NCBI GenBank assembly: GCA_019236695.1
Contig: JAFAIN010000282.1
Coordinates: 1-34,952 of the forward strand
Length of the DNA stretch: 34,952 bases
Origin: Acidobacteriota bacterium
GTDB lineage: Bacteria; Acidobacteriota; Terriglobia; Terriglobales; Acidobacteriaceae
Reading direction: 5' to 3'
The position numbers were made by a program, and so were the translations under genes. Positions 22,698 to 28,401 of this stretch are shown here, one piece after another. Each line of letters begins with the position of its first letter. The first letter of the stretch is position 1. Under the pieces are notes generated by a model. It ran no database searches. It saw only the letters and a list, made by a program, of their open reading frames with translations, and was not told the DNA's origin.

Positions 22698-23213
22698 TAC
22701 ACGACCGGGTTAGCCGGAGCCCCACCTCACGGCATAGGATTAAGGCGCACGCCTGCCCCGGCCTGCCCGGAAGCCGCGCCTTCCGCAGCAGTCCCCCACG
22801 GCAAATAAGCCGCCGCCTGGGCCCAAACCGGCCCGTGTTTCCATTGAGATGCAACTTTGCAGGAAGCGGCAAAAGGGAAAAGACCAGCGCAGGCAGCCGG
22901 TTGCCCCAAGGCTCACGGCGGCCGATTTTTGGCACTTTGCGACCCTGAGTGCCAAGAATGGGAAAATTCTTTCAACTTGTGCACCAAAATTGTTGCGTTC
23001 GGCTGAATGTCAGGCTACGATGAATTCCTGTGGAGGCTTTCCCAGGGCTTCCGCATCCCTGGCTGTACCGGGGCCCGCTATCCAGCAAAAAGCAAGGCGA
23101 GAATAAAACGGTGCGCAGGTGCGCTTCCGTCTGAATGGCGAAGCCCGACCAAAGTCCGAACGATCAGGCCCAGCTTGGCGCCGCTGCAATGCGGCGTTAC
23201 GGAGAAGACGGAC
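22698..23213. other. Divergent intergenic region between the cyclase and gvpL/F-like genes
   Basis: About 516 bp with no convincing gene. Frames at 22849-23106 and upstream of 23214 have no recognisable protein content. A GC-rich part (22740-22840) lies beside the cyclase start, and a less GC-rich part (22925-23010) probably holds promoters. A GGCAAA...AGGCAGCCGG pair at 22868-22900 was examined and rejected as a cyclic di-GMP riboswitch. Confidence 0.55.
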
Positions 23214-23948
23214 ATGGCGTGGTACGCGTATTGTCTTGCCGAGCAGCAGGCTTTCCTTCCCGGTTCCCGTTCCCGCCGCCCAACATTGATCGAAGACCTC
23301 CGCGGCATCAGCCAGCAGGAGGTTTATGCCTATCCCAGCGGCGACTTCGTTGTGATAGTCAGCGAAGCGGCCGGAGGAGAATTCGATCAGCAGGCGGTGT
23401 TGCAGCATGCGCGAGTAGTCAGCGAATGCTTCCGCGCTACCACCGTGCTGCCATTCCGGTTTGGAACGGTGTTTCATGATGATGAGGAGCTGCGGCGAGC
23501 CGTGCGCGCCAACCGCAAGGCGTTCACCGCCACGGTAGAGCGCTTGCGCGGCAAGAGCGAAATGCACCTCAAGCTGCTGGTGCGCGATGGAGTGGTCACC
23601 GCCATTGCCCCGGAGAGTGGCACGGTTCGCGCCACTGCCGGTGGTGAATACCTGGTGCAGCTCAAGCAGCGCGCCGCGCGTGACCGTGAGCGCCAAAGCC
23701 GCGCCCGCACGCTCTCCGTTCAGGTGCAGAGGTTGTTTAACCCGCTCGAGGCTGACGTTACCTGCAAAAAGGTGGATTCCGGCCGCATCATGATCGATAT
23801 TGCCCACCTCATCCCCAGCCATGGCGTTGAGAAGTACCAGAACCGCTACAACATCGCGGCCCGCCAGCTCAAAGGCTGCGAATTAATGGTGAGCGGGCCC
23901 TGGCCTCCCTACCACTTCATGCCGGGCAAGCTCAGGACGGTTTCATAG
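23214..23948 (+). CDS. GvpL/GvpF family protein (orphan)
   Basis: The protein has 244 residues. It begins MAWYAYCLAEQQ and shows the two-part GvpF/L pattern: FRATTVLPFRFGTVFHDDEEL in the N-terminal half and PPYHFMPGKL near the C-terminus (SGPWPPYHF). In gas-vesicle producers these proteins are minor structural or assembly factors that bind GvpA. No gvpA or other gas-vesicle gene is in the window, so this may be a repurposed homologue. The start is chosen from homology plus GGAG 9 nt upstream. A longer frame back to 23007 looks non-coding. Confidence 0.82.
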   Translation: MAWYAYCLAEQQAFLPGSRSRRPTLIEDLRGISQQEVYAYPSGDFVVIVSEAAGGEFDQQAVLQHARVVSECFRATTVLPFRFGTVFHDDEELRRAVRANRKAFTATVERLRGKSEMHLKLLVRDGVVTAIAPESGTVRATAGGEYLVQLKQRAARDRERQSRARTLSVQVQRLFNPLEADVTCKKVDSGRIMIDIAHLIPSHGVEKYQNRYNIAARQLKGCELMVSGPWPPYHFMPGKLRTVS

Positions 23949-24136: not shown

Positions 24137-25765
24137 ATGACTGGCTCCAAACCTCGAATTCTGGTGGTAGATGATGAACCGGCCATTGCACTGACGCTGC
24201 AGACCATCCTGGAGAACGAAGGGTACGAGGCCGAAAGCGCAGGCGGAGGGGCGGAAGCAATAGCGGCAGTGCGCCAGCGGCATTACGACGTGGTACTGAC
24301 TGACCTGCGAATGCCCCGCGTAGATGGCATGGCGGTGCTTGAAGAGGTGCGGCTGGGTTCGCCCCAAACCGCGACCCTGGTGCTGACCGGCTATGCTTCG
24401 CTCGACAGCGCCCTCGAAGCAGTGCACCGCGGCGCTTTCGAATACCTGATGAAGCCGGTAGAAGTGGCGCAGCTCAAGCTGGCAGTTGAACGCGCGCTCG
24501 AGCGCAAGCGCCTCTCGGAAATAGAAAGCCTGTACCGGGTGCAGAACAATCTCGCTTCAGCCCAGAATGAGCAATCGGTGGCGCGCGAAATTACGGACGC
24601 CGCGTGCAAGGTGCTGAACGTAGACCATGGCTACCTGTTTCTGATGCCGGCCGAGGAGAGCCTGCGGGCGGCCGCCCTCCCGCCTGCCGGCAACGACGTT
24701 CAACTGCTCACCGAGCTGCGCAACGGCCAGGTGATCCGTTCGGGGGAGAATACCGCGGCCGGAGAGTGGGCCCGGCAGCGCAACATCGCCGATTTTGCGC
24801 TGGTTCCCGGGGCCGCCCAGGGCGAGCTGGTTTGCGTGCTCTACGTCCACAATGGCGAGCGGCCATACGACTTTCACGCGTCTTCCCTGCGTTTTCTGCG
24901 CGCGCTGGCCGGGCAGGCGGCGCTGGTGCTGCGCAATCGCGAGCTTATTTCGCGGCTGCGGCTCAACAATCAGGAGCTTGCGGCTGCCAACCGCAAGCTG
25001 CAGGAACTGGATCGCCTGAAGTCGCAATTCCTCTCGGTTGCAACCCACGAGCTGCGGACGCCGCTCAGCGTGCTGCTCGGCTACAACCGCATGCTGGCCG
25101 AATCGCTGCGGGAGCGCCTCAACGGCGAAGAGGCCGGCATTCTGGAAGAATCCGCCTCGGCCTGCAAACGCCTCATCCGGCTGGTGAACTCGATGCTCGA
25201 CATCAGCCAGATTGAATCCGGGCGCATGCAGATGACCCTGGCCCCCGCCGACCTGAGGCAGGGGATTTCAGCGGTAGAGCGGCTTTTCCGGCACGAGGCG
25301 GAATCCCGCGGAATTGGCCTGCATGTGAACGTGCCGGCCAGGCTGCCGCGGCTGCTGCTCGACAGCGAACGCATTCAGCAGGTGCTCATCAACCTGGTGG
25401 GAAACGCCATTAAATTCACTCCTGCCGGAGGCCAGATCACCATCTCGCTGCACATGGCGGGGCGGGGCGAGGCCGAGTCACTCGAGATCGTGGTGCGCGA
25501 CACTGGAATCGGCATCGCTGCCGACGCGCAGCGGGTCATTTTCAGCGAGTTTGCGGTGCCCCCGGAGGCGCGCTCGCTTCCGGCGCCGCAGGCCAATACG
25601 GAGCGAGGATTCGGATTGGGTCTGGCAATCGCCCGCCGCATCATTGAAGCGCACGGCGGCAGCATCCGATTGAGCAGTTCCCCGGGTGAGGGCAGCACAT
25701 TCACCGTTTCGCTCCCCGTTCGCCGCCTCGCGGCTGCCGCGAAACATGCCTCACTCACCGCCTGA
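24137..25765 (+). CDS. REC-GAF-histidine kinase (hybrid sensor, receiver first)
   Basis: The protein has 542 residues. Domains in order: receiver (7-120; Asp56 in VLTDLRMP, Lys near FEYLMKP), GAF-like domain (about 130-280), a short coiled linker, HisKA with phospho-acceptor His304 (ATHELRTPLS), and HATPase_c with N box NLVGNAIKFTP, G1 DTGIGI and G2 GFGLGLAI. There are no transmembrane segments, so it is cytosolic. The N-terminal receiver suggests it is itself controlled by another kinase. It lies 182 bp upstream of an NtrC-type regulator on the same strand, a likely partner. Confidence 0.93.
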   Translation: MTGSKPRILVVDDEPAIALTLQTILENEGYEAESAGGGAEAIAAVRQRHYDVVLTDLRMPRVDGMAVLEEVRLGSPQTATLVLTGYASLDSALEAVHRGAFEYLMKPVEVAQLKLAVERALERKRLSEIESLYRVQNNLASAQNEQSVAREITDAACKVLNVDHGYLFLMPAEESLRAAALPPAGNDVQLLTELRNGQVIRSGENTAAGEWARQRNIADFALVPGAAQGELVCVLYVHNGERPYDFHASSLRFLRALAGQAALVLRNRELISRLRLNNQELAAANRKLQELDRLKSQFLSVATHELRTPLSVLLGYNRMLAESLRERLNGEEAGILEESASACKRLIRLVNSMLDISQIESGRMQMTLAPADLRQGISAVERLFRHEAESRGIGLHVNVPARLPRLLLDSERIQQVLINLVGNAIKFTPAGGQITISLHMAGRGEAESLEIVVRDTGIGIAADAQRVIFSEFAVPPEARSLPAPQANTERGFGLGLAIARRIIEAHGGSIRLSSSPGEGSTFTVSLPVRRLAAAAKHASLTA

Positions 25766-25947: not shown

Positions 25948-27495
25948 GTGCACCACCGAGGCCCTTTGCTGACCAATTCCAAGACCCGGCTCCTCATAGT
26001 GGACGATGACGGCAGCCTTTCTAAATACCTCAGCACCTACCTGACCCGGCGGAACTTCGAAATCGGAACCGCCGCCAGCGGCGAAGAAGCCATCCGCCTC
26101 TTCCGTGTCTATGACCCGCATGTTGTGCTGCTGGATCTGGGCATGCCGGGCATGGATGGCATTGACACCCTCGAGCGGCTGAAGCAGATCAAGCCCGAGG
26201 TAGCCGTCATCATCATCTCCGGGCAGAACGATCCGGAGCTGATCTTCAAGGCTTCGAGGCTGGGCGCCGATGACTACGTCAGCAAACCATTCGAGCCGCG
26301 CAATCTCGAGGCGCGGCTCAGCAAGGTGATCGACAAGCTGCGCCTGGTGAGTGAAGTGACCCAGTTGCGGGAGCAGGTACGAAGGCAAACCGATTTCTCG
26401 GCCCTTTTCGGGACCAGCCCCAAAATGGAAGAGGTGAAACACACCATCGAGCAGGTGGCCGATACCACCGCCACCGTGCTCATCCGCGGCGAGAGCGGCA
26501 CCGGCAAAGAGGTGGTGGCCCGCATGATCTATGCGCAGTCCAGCCGCCGCGATAAGCCATTTGTGAAGGTGAACTGCGCCGCCATTCCCCACGAGCTGCT
26601 GGAATCCGAGCTCTTCGGCTATGAGCCCGGCGCTTTCACCGGCGCCAACCGGCAGAAGCTCGGCAAATTCGACCAGGCGAATTACGGCACAATTTTTCTC
26701 GATGAAATCAGCGAGATGCATCCCGCGCTGCAGGCCAAGCTGCTGCACGTATTGCAGGATGGCGAGTTCTCGCGCCTCGGCGGCAAGCGCGATATCGCGG
26801 TAGATGTGCGGGTGCTGGCCGCCACCAACAAGGCGCTGGAACGCGCCGTTCAGGATGGGGCCTTTCGGGAGGACCTGTTTTACCGCCTCAACGTCATCAC
26901 GGTCCACATACCGCCGCTGCGGGAACGCCGGGAAGAAATCCCAATCCTGCTGGATTTCTTCATGACCAAATATTCCGAGTATTACGGCAAGCAGCCGCCC
27001 AGGTTCAGCGACTACGCCGTTTCGCGCATGATGGAGTACCCCTGGCCGGGAAACATTCGCGAGCTTGAGAATCTGGTGAAGCGCTACGTCATCGTGGGCA
27101 ACGAAACCTCGATCATCCGCGAACTCTCCACTCACAAGCCCATCGTTTCCTCCCTCAGCAGCGGGCCCGGTTGGGAACAACCTCAGAGCAACAGTCATGC
27201 CGCGACCGAGCCGGCTCAATTGCGAACCGATGGCAGCGCAGATGGCGCCGCAGGCGCCGCATGGCTTGCCCGCAGCCCCGATGCCGGCAACGGCGAAATG
27301 CCGTCGCTCCTGGAAATCGGCAGGAAGGCCGCCATGAAGGCAGAGCGCGAGGCGATTGAGCGGGTTTTGACCCAGACTCGCTGGAATCGGCGCCAGGCCG
27401 CTAGAATTCTGAAGATCAGCTACAAGGCCCTGCTGAACAAATTGAAGGTAATCGAGGAACAGAATGCCGCCCAAGCACGGAACCAGAGTGCTTAA
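25948..27495 (+). CDS. NtrC-family sigma54-dependent response regulator
   Basis: The protein has 515 residues. Receiver domain (13-125; Asp63 in [11 protein letters not shown]), AAA+ domain with Walker A GESGTGKE, the sigma54-contact loop GAFTGA at 228-233, Walker [12 protein letters not shown], and the R-finger region [21 protein letters not shown], followed by an Ala/Gly-rich linker (about 390-455) and a Fis-type helix-turn-helix ([19 protein letters not shown]). The intact GAFTGA means it should activate sigma54 RNA polymerase when phosphorylated. The start is uncertain: GTG 25948 is used, with AGGAGG about 16 nt upstream; TTG 25966 is also possible. Probably phosphorylated by the upstream kinase. 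Confidence 0.92.
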
Positions 27496-27645
27496 GGTGA
27501 GTATCGAAGTGCCACTTGCGGTTATCTCCCTGATTCTGCCACCCGAAACGCTTCTGTGGAAAACCAGAACGGCTCCTGCGCTAAGCACCTGCTGAAACAA
27601 TTTGTTACCCAAGCTGGCCCGGCACTCTCAGCATCAGGCCTTTTT

Positions 27646-27661
27646 TGGCCGAGCAAGTGCT
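27646..27661 (+). promoter_or_regulatory. Candidate sigma54 (-24/-12) promoter
   Basis: TGGCCGAGCAAGTGCT has the invariant GG (27647-27648) and GC (27659-27660) separated by exactly 10 nt, with TGGC at -24 and TGCT at -12. It departs from consensus at the A of TGGCA and at the first T of TTGC. Predicted transcription start is near 27672. The candidate gains weight from lying 150 bp after a sigma54 activator gene. Confidence 0.35.
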
Positions 27662-27671
27662 GCTACTCAGG

Positions 27672-27834
27672 ACAACAAAGAGGCTGTACACCGTGACATT
27701 GACCCTCTTCATTTTCGCTCGACCGTACCAGTCACTACGTTCCGGATGGAACAGCATCGCGTATCGCCTTCCCTGAGTTTTTCCCTCCCTCCCTTGCCTC
27801 TTTAGAACGGCCCGCGAAAGCGGGCCGTTTTTTT
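27672..27834 (+). ncRNA. Candidate small RNA ending at the intrinsic terminator
   Basis: If the sigma54-like site is real, a transcript of about 160 nt would run to the terminator. It would contain a small hairpin GTTCC/GGAAC (27739-27752), an unpaired-looking C-rich run CCCTCCCTCCC complementary to Shine-Dalgarno sequences, and a 3' hairpin with a U-tract of the kind bound by Hfq. There is no credible open frame. The alternative is simply the 3' untranslated region of the NtrC-type mRNA. Confidence 0.3.
27806..27834 (+). terminator. Strong rho-independent terminator
   Basis: AACGGCCCGC, loop GAAA, GCGGGCCGTT, then a run of T residues to 27834. The 10-bp GC-rich stem with a stable tetraloop and T-tract is a textbook intrinsic terminator for plus-strand transcripts. 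The reverse direction lacks a T-tract after the stem. Confidence 0.92.
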
Positions 27835-27859
27835 GAAGAAGCTCTAGCCATAAATTTTC

Positions 27860-27891
27860 ACCGCGGAGGCACGGAGACGCGGGGAGAATGC
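27860..27891. repeat. CACGGAG-type degenerate repeat (second copy)
   Basis: The stretch GCGGAGGCACGGAGACGCGG continues to GGAGAATGC. It shares GGAGGCACGGAG and the ending GAGAATGC with 17323-17350. It lies 9 bp beyond the HIT stop. Confidence 0.55.
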
Positions 27892-27900
27892 AGCCCTCGG

Positions 27901-28401
27901 TTATGGCTTCGAGTCTTGCCAGGCGCTTTTGATCCGGGCGTAGGCCTGCTCGAGCGACTCCGGCAGCACGCGGGTTTCGGCGGTGGCGCCCATGAAGTTG
28001 GTATCCCCAAACCAGCGCGGCAGCGCGTGCAGGTGAATGTGGCCGGCCACGCCGGCGCCGGCGGCACGCCCCTGGTTCATGCCGAGGTTCATGCCATGTG
28101 GGCGATATAGATTGCGCAGAACGCCATCGGCGCGTTGCGCCAGGGCCATCATTTCGTTTGCCGCAGCGGCAGGCAGTTTGCGCAGCTCATCCACATGCCC
28201 GTAAGGAGCAATCATCAGGTGACCGCTGGTGTAAGGGAACCGGTTCAACATCACCAGGCATTCGGTCCCGCGGTGAACCACCAGGCTGGCGGCATCATCC
28301 GTGGCCTGCCGAATTTCGCAAAAAAGGCAGTTTTGCGCTGAGGCTTCGGCGGCAGCGCCGGCGATGTACTGGTAACGCCAGGGTGTGAACAGGTAATCCA
28401 T
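27901..28401 (-). CDS. HIT family protein (AP4A hydrolase/phosphorylase-like)
   Basis: The protein has 166 residues. The histidine triad is HIHLHALP with His121, His123 and His125. A zinc-type CLFC pair (C25, C28) lies near the N-terminus, and LNRFPYTSGHLMIAP is typical of the branch that cleaves diadenosine polyphosphates or other nucleoside phosphoramidates. It is probably cytoplasmic housekeeping. It is divergent from the S9 peptidase gene with 66 bp between starts. The exact substrate cannot be inferred. Confidence 0.92.
   Translation of the reverse strand: MDYLFTPWRYQYIAGAAAEASAQNCLFCEIRQATDDAASLVVHRGTECLVMLNRFPYTSGHLMIAPYGHVDELRKLPAAAANEMMALAQRADGVLRNLYRPHGMNLGMNQGRAAGAGVAGHIHLHALPRWFGDTNFMGATAETRVLPESLEQAYARIKSAWQDSKP

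Follow-up and report, generated by a model that had tools for sequence, protein, structure and literature searches.

The window analysed here, a stretch of 34,952 nucleotides from a member of the Acidobacteriaceae, contains a gap between the stop codon of a gene for an NtrC-type response regulator and a convergent HIT-domain gene (27901-28401). Does this gap hold an RNA gene, how would such a gene be controlled, and what might its product do? The original prediction had placed there a sigma54-controlled small RNA; the elements on which it was built (a GG-N10-GC site, a 5-bp hairpin, a C-rich run and a terminator with T-tract) were all found in the sequence where it had put them. As judged by comparison with relatives, the finding is real and conserved, and it is more interesting than was proposed. 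The genes upstream of the gap are as follows.

25948-27495, + strand: NtrC-type response regulator (receiver, sigma54 AAA+ and Fis-type HTH domains by Pfam), presumed activator of the RNA gene
24137-25765, + strand: hybrid histidine kinase (receiver, GAF, HisKA and HATPase domains), at this place in some relatives only
23007-23948, + strand: GvpL/F-like gene, usually found next to the RNA locus on its upstream side, in both groups of loci described below

Conservation of the RNA element

Orthologues of the activator were found in 39/300 genomes of the family (protein search, E<=1e-140), and when the sequence 3' of their stop codons was read, the RNA element lay directly downstream in 38 of the 39. 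These 38 regulator-linked loci were picked by protein; the script that located the element required a promoter, which was found at every RNA-bearing locus. The original prediction had staked itself on conservation of the GG/GC pair and of the C-rich run in relatives that keep the regulator, and it survived this check, the promoter being present in 38/38 and the run in 27/32. The sole orthologue without the RNA downstream is that of locus L020 (genome G022), where a DksA/TraR-like gene directly follows the activator orthologue.

The pattern TTGG-N9-TGC-N12-24-AAAGAGGC-N90-120-CCTCTTT gave a single match per genome in 62/300 family genomes, and the reversed-pattern control gave 0 matches in the same 300; therefore, the element occurs far beyond chance. 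In 84,980 genomes, the joint pattern matched 56 acidobacterial contigs (with Terriglobales, Terriglobia or gp1-type titles) and eight others that resembled chance. Matches in Kordia, Shimia, a Cytophagales MAG and Selenomonas, and likewise in Polynucleobacter, a Burkholderiaceae MAG, Nitrospira and Thermoanaerobaculum, were without a terminator or matching ORF and were judged to be chance.

A covariance model (CM) was built from the transcript alone and is blind to the promoter. In 399 genomes from the class, 24 full-length matches to it were obtained, all inside the window's family, including seven members overlooked by the exact pattern (L185, L190, L195, L198, L203, L206 and L207). Out-of-family CM matches were short (about 45-54 bp) with weak scores and were judged terminator-like chance. 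The window itself was matched at 27671-27834 (E 6e-27), its sequence having been part of the model. The sampled elements are kin by descent, so that the ORF counts given below are not independent events, and most of those outside the regulator set were gathered using strings of the closing helix P1 (see below).

Rfam contained no family matching at the gathering threshold; relaxed thresholds gave nothing real, and sub-threshold scores for other families were weak (30.9 against a gathering threshold of 41, and 25.1 against 79). In conclusion, these comparisons indicate a real RNA gene in the gap, one that Rfam lacks and that dozens of related genera conserve; as to membership of a family, we claim only that of a structured, terminated RNA with a sigma54-type promoter.

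The original prediction had tied the RNA to the kinase-regulator pair. This holds for the regulator (38/39), but the neighbouring kinase is not a constant partner, as it does not regularly stand beside the RNA locus among relatives. As for the GvpL/F-like gene, a search for GvpA-family matches found none in the window's genome, G031, G007 and G146, and one each in G001, G033, G019 and G116; because such a match is absent in some of these genomes, the role of this gene need not be gas vesicles. On the other side of the RNA gene, a short dispersed repeat of the CACCGCGGAGGCACGGAGACGCGG type (27856-27894) directly follows the terminator, and 11 more partial matches to it are found elsewhere in the genome, with 83-96% identity.

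Promoter and enhancer

The control elements in the window are the following.

27499-27514, no strand: position of the enhancer (UAS), GAGTATCGAAGTGCCA; TGGNA-N6-TNCCA in relatives, left half degenerate in the window
27645-27660, + strand: sigma54 -24/-12 promoter TTGG-N9-TGC, found in 38/38 regulator-linked loci and in 7/7 of the promoter-blind CM members
27672-27834, + strand: predicted transcript of about 163 nt, its start placed 12 nt past the -12 C and its end in the T-tract, from promoter geometry, terminator and CM

The GG at 27647-27648 and the GC at 27659-27660 form GG-N10-GC, and their positions lead to an expected sigma54 start at 27672. TGG-N10-GC was found 30-37 nt (mostly 31-32 nt) before the AAGAGG head of the RNA in all 38 loci, and at the same spacing in 7/7 CM-only members (by script, and by eye for L190, L195, L198 and L206). 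The sigma54 protein RpoN was not found in the window's genome, a fragmented MAG that is 88% complete; it was present in 8/8 relatives tested, a congener included. The RNA gene is apparently switched on through this sigma54 promoter, and we infer that it depends on sigma54 in vivo.

In regulator-linked loci, the conserved UAS is a 16-bp palindrome, TGGNA-N6-TNCCA, located just behind the regulator stop codon and mostly 134-161 nt 5' of the -24 element, a near-fixed offset. The window copy retains the right half only; since its left half is lost, regulation of the RNA gene may be weak in the window. The 11-bp palindrome AAGTGCCACTT (27507-27517), for which an enhancer role had been suggested, is indeed present, but it overlaps only the right half of the conserved 16-mer and is not the conserved element; its role as enhancer is not supported. 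Linkage to the regulator, the promoter and the near-constant enhancer distance together bear out the idea of an RNA gene probably controlled by sigma54 and tied to the NtrC-type activator.

In a second group of loci, this regulator was absent near the RNA, and many of these loci have GTGCA-N6-TGCAC instead, at 123-137 nt. As a different UAS occupies the same place without this activator nearby, a different activator seems to run the RNA gene there; in front of this RNA gene, one type of enhancer seems to have given way to another. A search for this second activator through GTGCA-N6-TGCAC in six genomes gave counts equal to those of the control, and the lone NtrC-like match overlapped an intragenic site. 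Likewise, a wider regulon of the first activator, sought as UAS plus -24/-12 site in 27 genomes, yielded mostly chance-like matches besides the RNA promoter. In L079, L091 and L101, the regulator gene is itself directly preceded by a second TGGNA-N6-TNCCA, at about 1.7 kb from the RNA promoter on its 5' side, which suggests autoregulation in that genus.

RNA fold and a small open reading frame

The predicted transcript carries the following features.

27677-27684, + strand: head AAAGAGGC, Shine-Dalgarno-like, 5' arm of the closing helix P1; invariant in 52 aligned sequences
27693-27776, + strand: small ORF of 27 codons, GTG start and TGA stop; ORF present in 74/77 elements, frame kept, peptide unconstrained
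27739-27752, + strand: internal hairpin P2, GTTCC/GGAAC, inside the ORF; both-side changes across relatives
27783-27793, + strand: C-rich run CCCTCCCTCCC, in 27/32 regulator-linked and 3/36 other elements
27796-27803, + strand: tail GCCTCTTT, anti-Shine-Dalgarno-like, 3' arm of P1; invariant in the alignment
27806-27834, + strand: intrinsic terminator and T-tract, AACGGCCCGC-GAAA-GCGGGCCGTT at 27806-27829; both-side changes

The closing helix and the small ORF had both been overlooked in the original prediction. P1 (AAAGAGGC/GCCTCTTT) was invariant across the 52 aligned sequences and has no covariation support, because it never varies in the alignment; it formed in the predicted fold of 17/17 elements folded. 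In three CM-found members (L190, L195 and L198), its outer edge varies and the AGAGG/CCTCT core is kept. P2 and the terminator, by contrast, do covary: in the same alignment, both-side changes were found at 9/9 pairs of P2 and at 6/7 pairs of the terminator, and 91.9% of cells were paired in the aligned structure, compared with 43-55% when the structure was slid. The C-rich run, expected to be conserved, was so in regulator-linked elements (CCCTCCC in 27/32) but not in sister-group elements (3/36), both groups being C-rich and G-poor; blocking of Shine-Dalgarno sites by this run, as had been put forward, would be conceivable. In the congener RNA (L010:2670-2885), the ORF contains an additional hairpin, formed by about 51 nt that are inserted in frame.

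The ORF was found in 74/77 distinct elements, with ATG (62), TTG (7) or GTG (5) starts and lengths of 18-43 codons, mostly 25-29. It stops 13-37 nt (mostly 13-23) before CCTCTTT, and its start codon often lies far from the Shine-Dalgarno-like head. Among CM-only members it was present in 6/7 (L185 and L203 by script; L190, L195, L198 and L206 by eye), and L207, the most divergent of them, is without it; because L040, L072, L077 and L207 are all without the ORF, it is not indispensable. In dinucleotide shuffles, an ORF was found in 9.7/77 compared with the 74/77 observed, a null that overstates the contrast since the conserved motifs are also destroyed. Two controls are fairer. The other two frames were open over the same spans in 45/74 and 47/74. 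Counted from the CTCTTC-type anchor, the stop lay at a multiple of three in 32/37 elements, for lengths from 66 to 117, and the head-to-anchor and stop-to-tail spacings were random modulo 3. In L071 and L094, which belong to one clade, a +1 change and a nearby -1 change cancel each other.

The peptide behaved differently from the frame. In 21 non-overlapping pairs, pN/pS was 0.93 and codon positions 1, 2 and 3 showed 116, 120 and 115 differences; a conserved small protein, considered at one stage, was dropped after this test. The variable middle of the ORF had 0.26, 0.27 and 0.31 changes per site at the three positions, and in the conserved last codons third positions were the least variable. 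The synonymous fraction showed no excess over a column-shuffled null, in a test that compared only open ORFs and so had zero in-frame stops by construction. Frame-0 peptides had a net charge of +2.5, compared with +0.5 and +1.4 in the other frames, and a near-neutral hydropathy (GRAVY -0.12). Because constraint at the RNA level bears on every position, weak selection on the peptide could be hidden, and given the basic frame-0 peptides a loosely constrained peptide is conceivable. What appears to be conserved is translation and not the peptide, and the frame is probably translated.

Known systems and possible mode of action

Knowledge of small RNAs from soil Acidobacteria is scant, and our literature search found no paper on a sigma54-driven sRNA in these bacteria. 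In LuxO-Qrr of Vibrio and GlrR-GlmY/GlmZ of Enterobacteria, an NtrC-type response regulator and sigma54 drive terminated regulatory RNAs; the likeness lies in these two factors, in hosts unrelated to the acidobacterium, and to our knowledge the Qrr and GlmY/GlmZ RNAs have no ORF. The crcZ gene adjoins cbrB. In Pseudomonas, CbrB, an NtrC-type regulator, directly activates the sigma54-dependent regulatory RNA CrcZ/CrcY, and its sites consist of three non-palindromic subsites (PMC6296734). The logic is the same, but the acidobacterial gene has one 16-bp palindrome, and its product, a single structured RNA that combines a conserved ORF with a head-tail lock, differs from CrcZ in sequence and, unlike CbrB-CrcZ, is confined to one acidobacterial family. 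The acidobacterial RNA showed no sequence match to Qrr or GlmY/GlmZ, and as regards CrcZ, Qrr and GlmY/GlmZ it had no match to a described RNA family in Rfam.

Pos19 of Rhodobacter sphaeroides is also a small terminated transcript with an sORF under an alternative sigma factor, RpoE; its regulation of targets persists without translation, and it was found only in that species (PMC5036791). The acidobacterial RNA differs in using sigma54, in occurring in many genera, in conserving the frame and not the peptide, and in its head-tail helix. With suhB/mmgR and RsaE/RoxS it shares a CU-rich unpaired stretch before the intrinsic terminator, whereas regulation, ORF and fold differ, and their Rfam scores were below gathering. 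The gene thus appears to be previously unlisted, the new feature being an ORF with conservation of frame and none of peptide. Dozens of genera share this defined RNA gene, for which promoter, enhancer, fold and terminator are described, and a frame apparently kept for translation without a peptide makes a general question about ORFs in sRNAs testable.

Our best reading, to which we would commit about half of our confidence, is a dedicated regulatory RNA that is switched by NtrC and sigma54, engages ribosomes and carries anti-Shine-Dalgarno-like segments. On a gene, promoter, enhancer, fold, terminator and open frame that are supported by comparison, it would build sigma54 dependence in vivo, translation, ribosome gating, trans-pairing and targets. 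The activator (25948-27495) would bind the enhancer about 150 bp upstream and drive sigma54 RNA polymerase from 27645-27660, giving the terminated transcript 27672-27834. The RNA would fold back, its Shine-Dalgarno-like head AAAGAGGC pairing with GCCUCUUU, the tail immediately ahead of the terminator, and the head-tail helix would enclose a body that is rich in pyrimidines and has one hairpin. Ribosomes would translate the ORF of about 27 codons, whose end precedes the tail by about 20 nt; as the frame is conserved and the peptide is not, the ORF most likely serves ribosome passage. As they load and move through, ribosomes would undo the closing helix and reshape the pyrimidine-rich strand, and the opened RNA would act in trans, its CU-rich segments and tail pairing with Shine-Dalgarno regions of target mRNAs. 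Tentatively, and with more doubt than belief, we propose further that the ORF is kept for the act of translation, that ribosome entry and near-fixed termination gate the head-tail lock so that anti-Shine-Dalgarno activity appears only in translating cells, and that the enhancer switched between specificities for two activator types with the RNA unchanged.

Two other explanations concern the ORF, and we consider each of them unlikely, to a similar degree. A dual-function coding sRNA, in which a short basic peptide works alongside the RNA under loose constraint, would account for the kept frame, start and stop and for peptides more basic than those of the other frames, and Pos19 offers a precedent (PMC5036791); nevertheless, pN/pS of 0.93, codon positions that differ equally and a synonymous fraction no higher than the shuffled null argue against it, and the conserved ORF ends reflect conservation at the nucleotide level. 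Conversely, the ORF could be a by-product of RNA motifs in a pyrimidine-rich, stop-poor sequence, and the RNA a plain non-coding sigma54 sRNA acting by base-pairing, much as was first predicted. Structure and motifs are indeed kept at the nucleotide level, the other frames are often open too, and a few members are without the ORF; however, a conserved frame runs through the RNA, with an anchor-to-stop distance that is a multiple of three in 32/37 elements between flanking spacings that are random modulo 3, and with compensating +1/-1 changes in one clade.

A CrcZ-like sponge that titrates an RNA-binding protein, Hfq or a different CU-binding one, would suit the long pyrimidine-rich single-stranded body and the gene logic shared with CbrB-CrcZ (PMC6296734); a repeated protein-binding motif was not seen in the RNA, and its best conserved parts are the Shine-Dalgarno-like head and the anti-Shine-Dalgarno-like tail, which makes this explanation very unlikely. 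Hardly credible at all is a type I toxin mRNA inhibited by fold-back, in which the ribosome-binding site stays hidden by the 3' tail until the RNA is processed: head-tail pairing does cover a Shine-Dalgarno-like site next to the terminator, but the peptides are basic, unconserved and near neutral in hydropathy, unlike a conserved hydrophobic toxin, and the gene is present in a single copy per genome.

In the ribosome-engaging RNA that we prefer, trans-pairing would perhaps involve Hfq. The original prediction had pointed to the product of 2274-2600 in this respect; this link was not upheld, as the protein is only a distant Hfq/Sm-like one (23.7 bits, compared with an Hfq cut-off of 27), and the genuine Hfq of the window's genome was found on contig C138 (94.8 bits). 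The gene at 2274-2600 encodes an Hfq-related/Sm-like protein of 108 aa and adjoins an inositol-monophosphatase-like gene, and a second divergent Hfq-like protein is encoded on contig C214 (32.4 bits).
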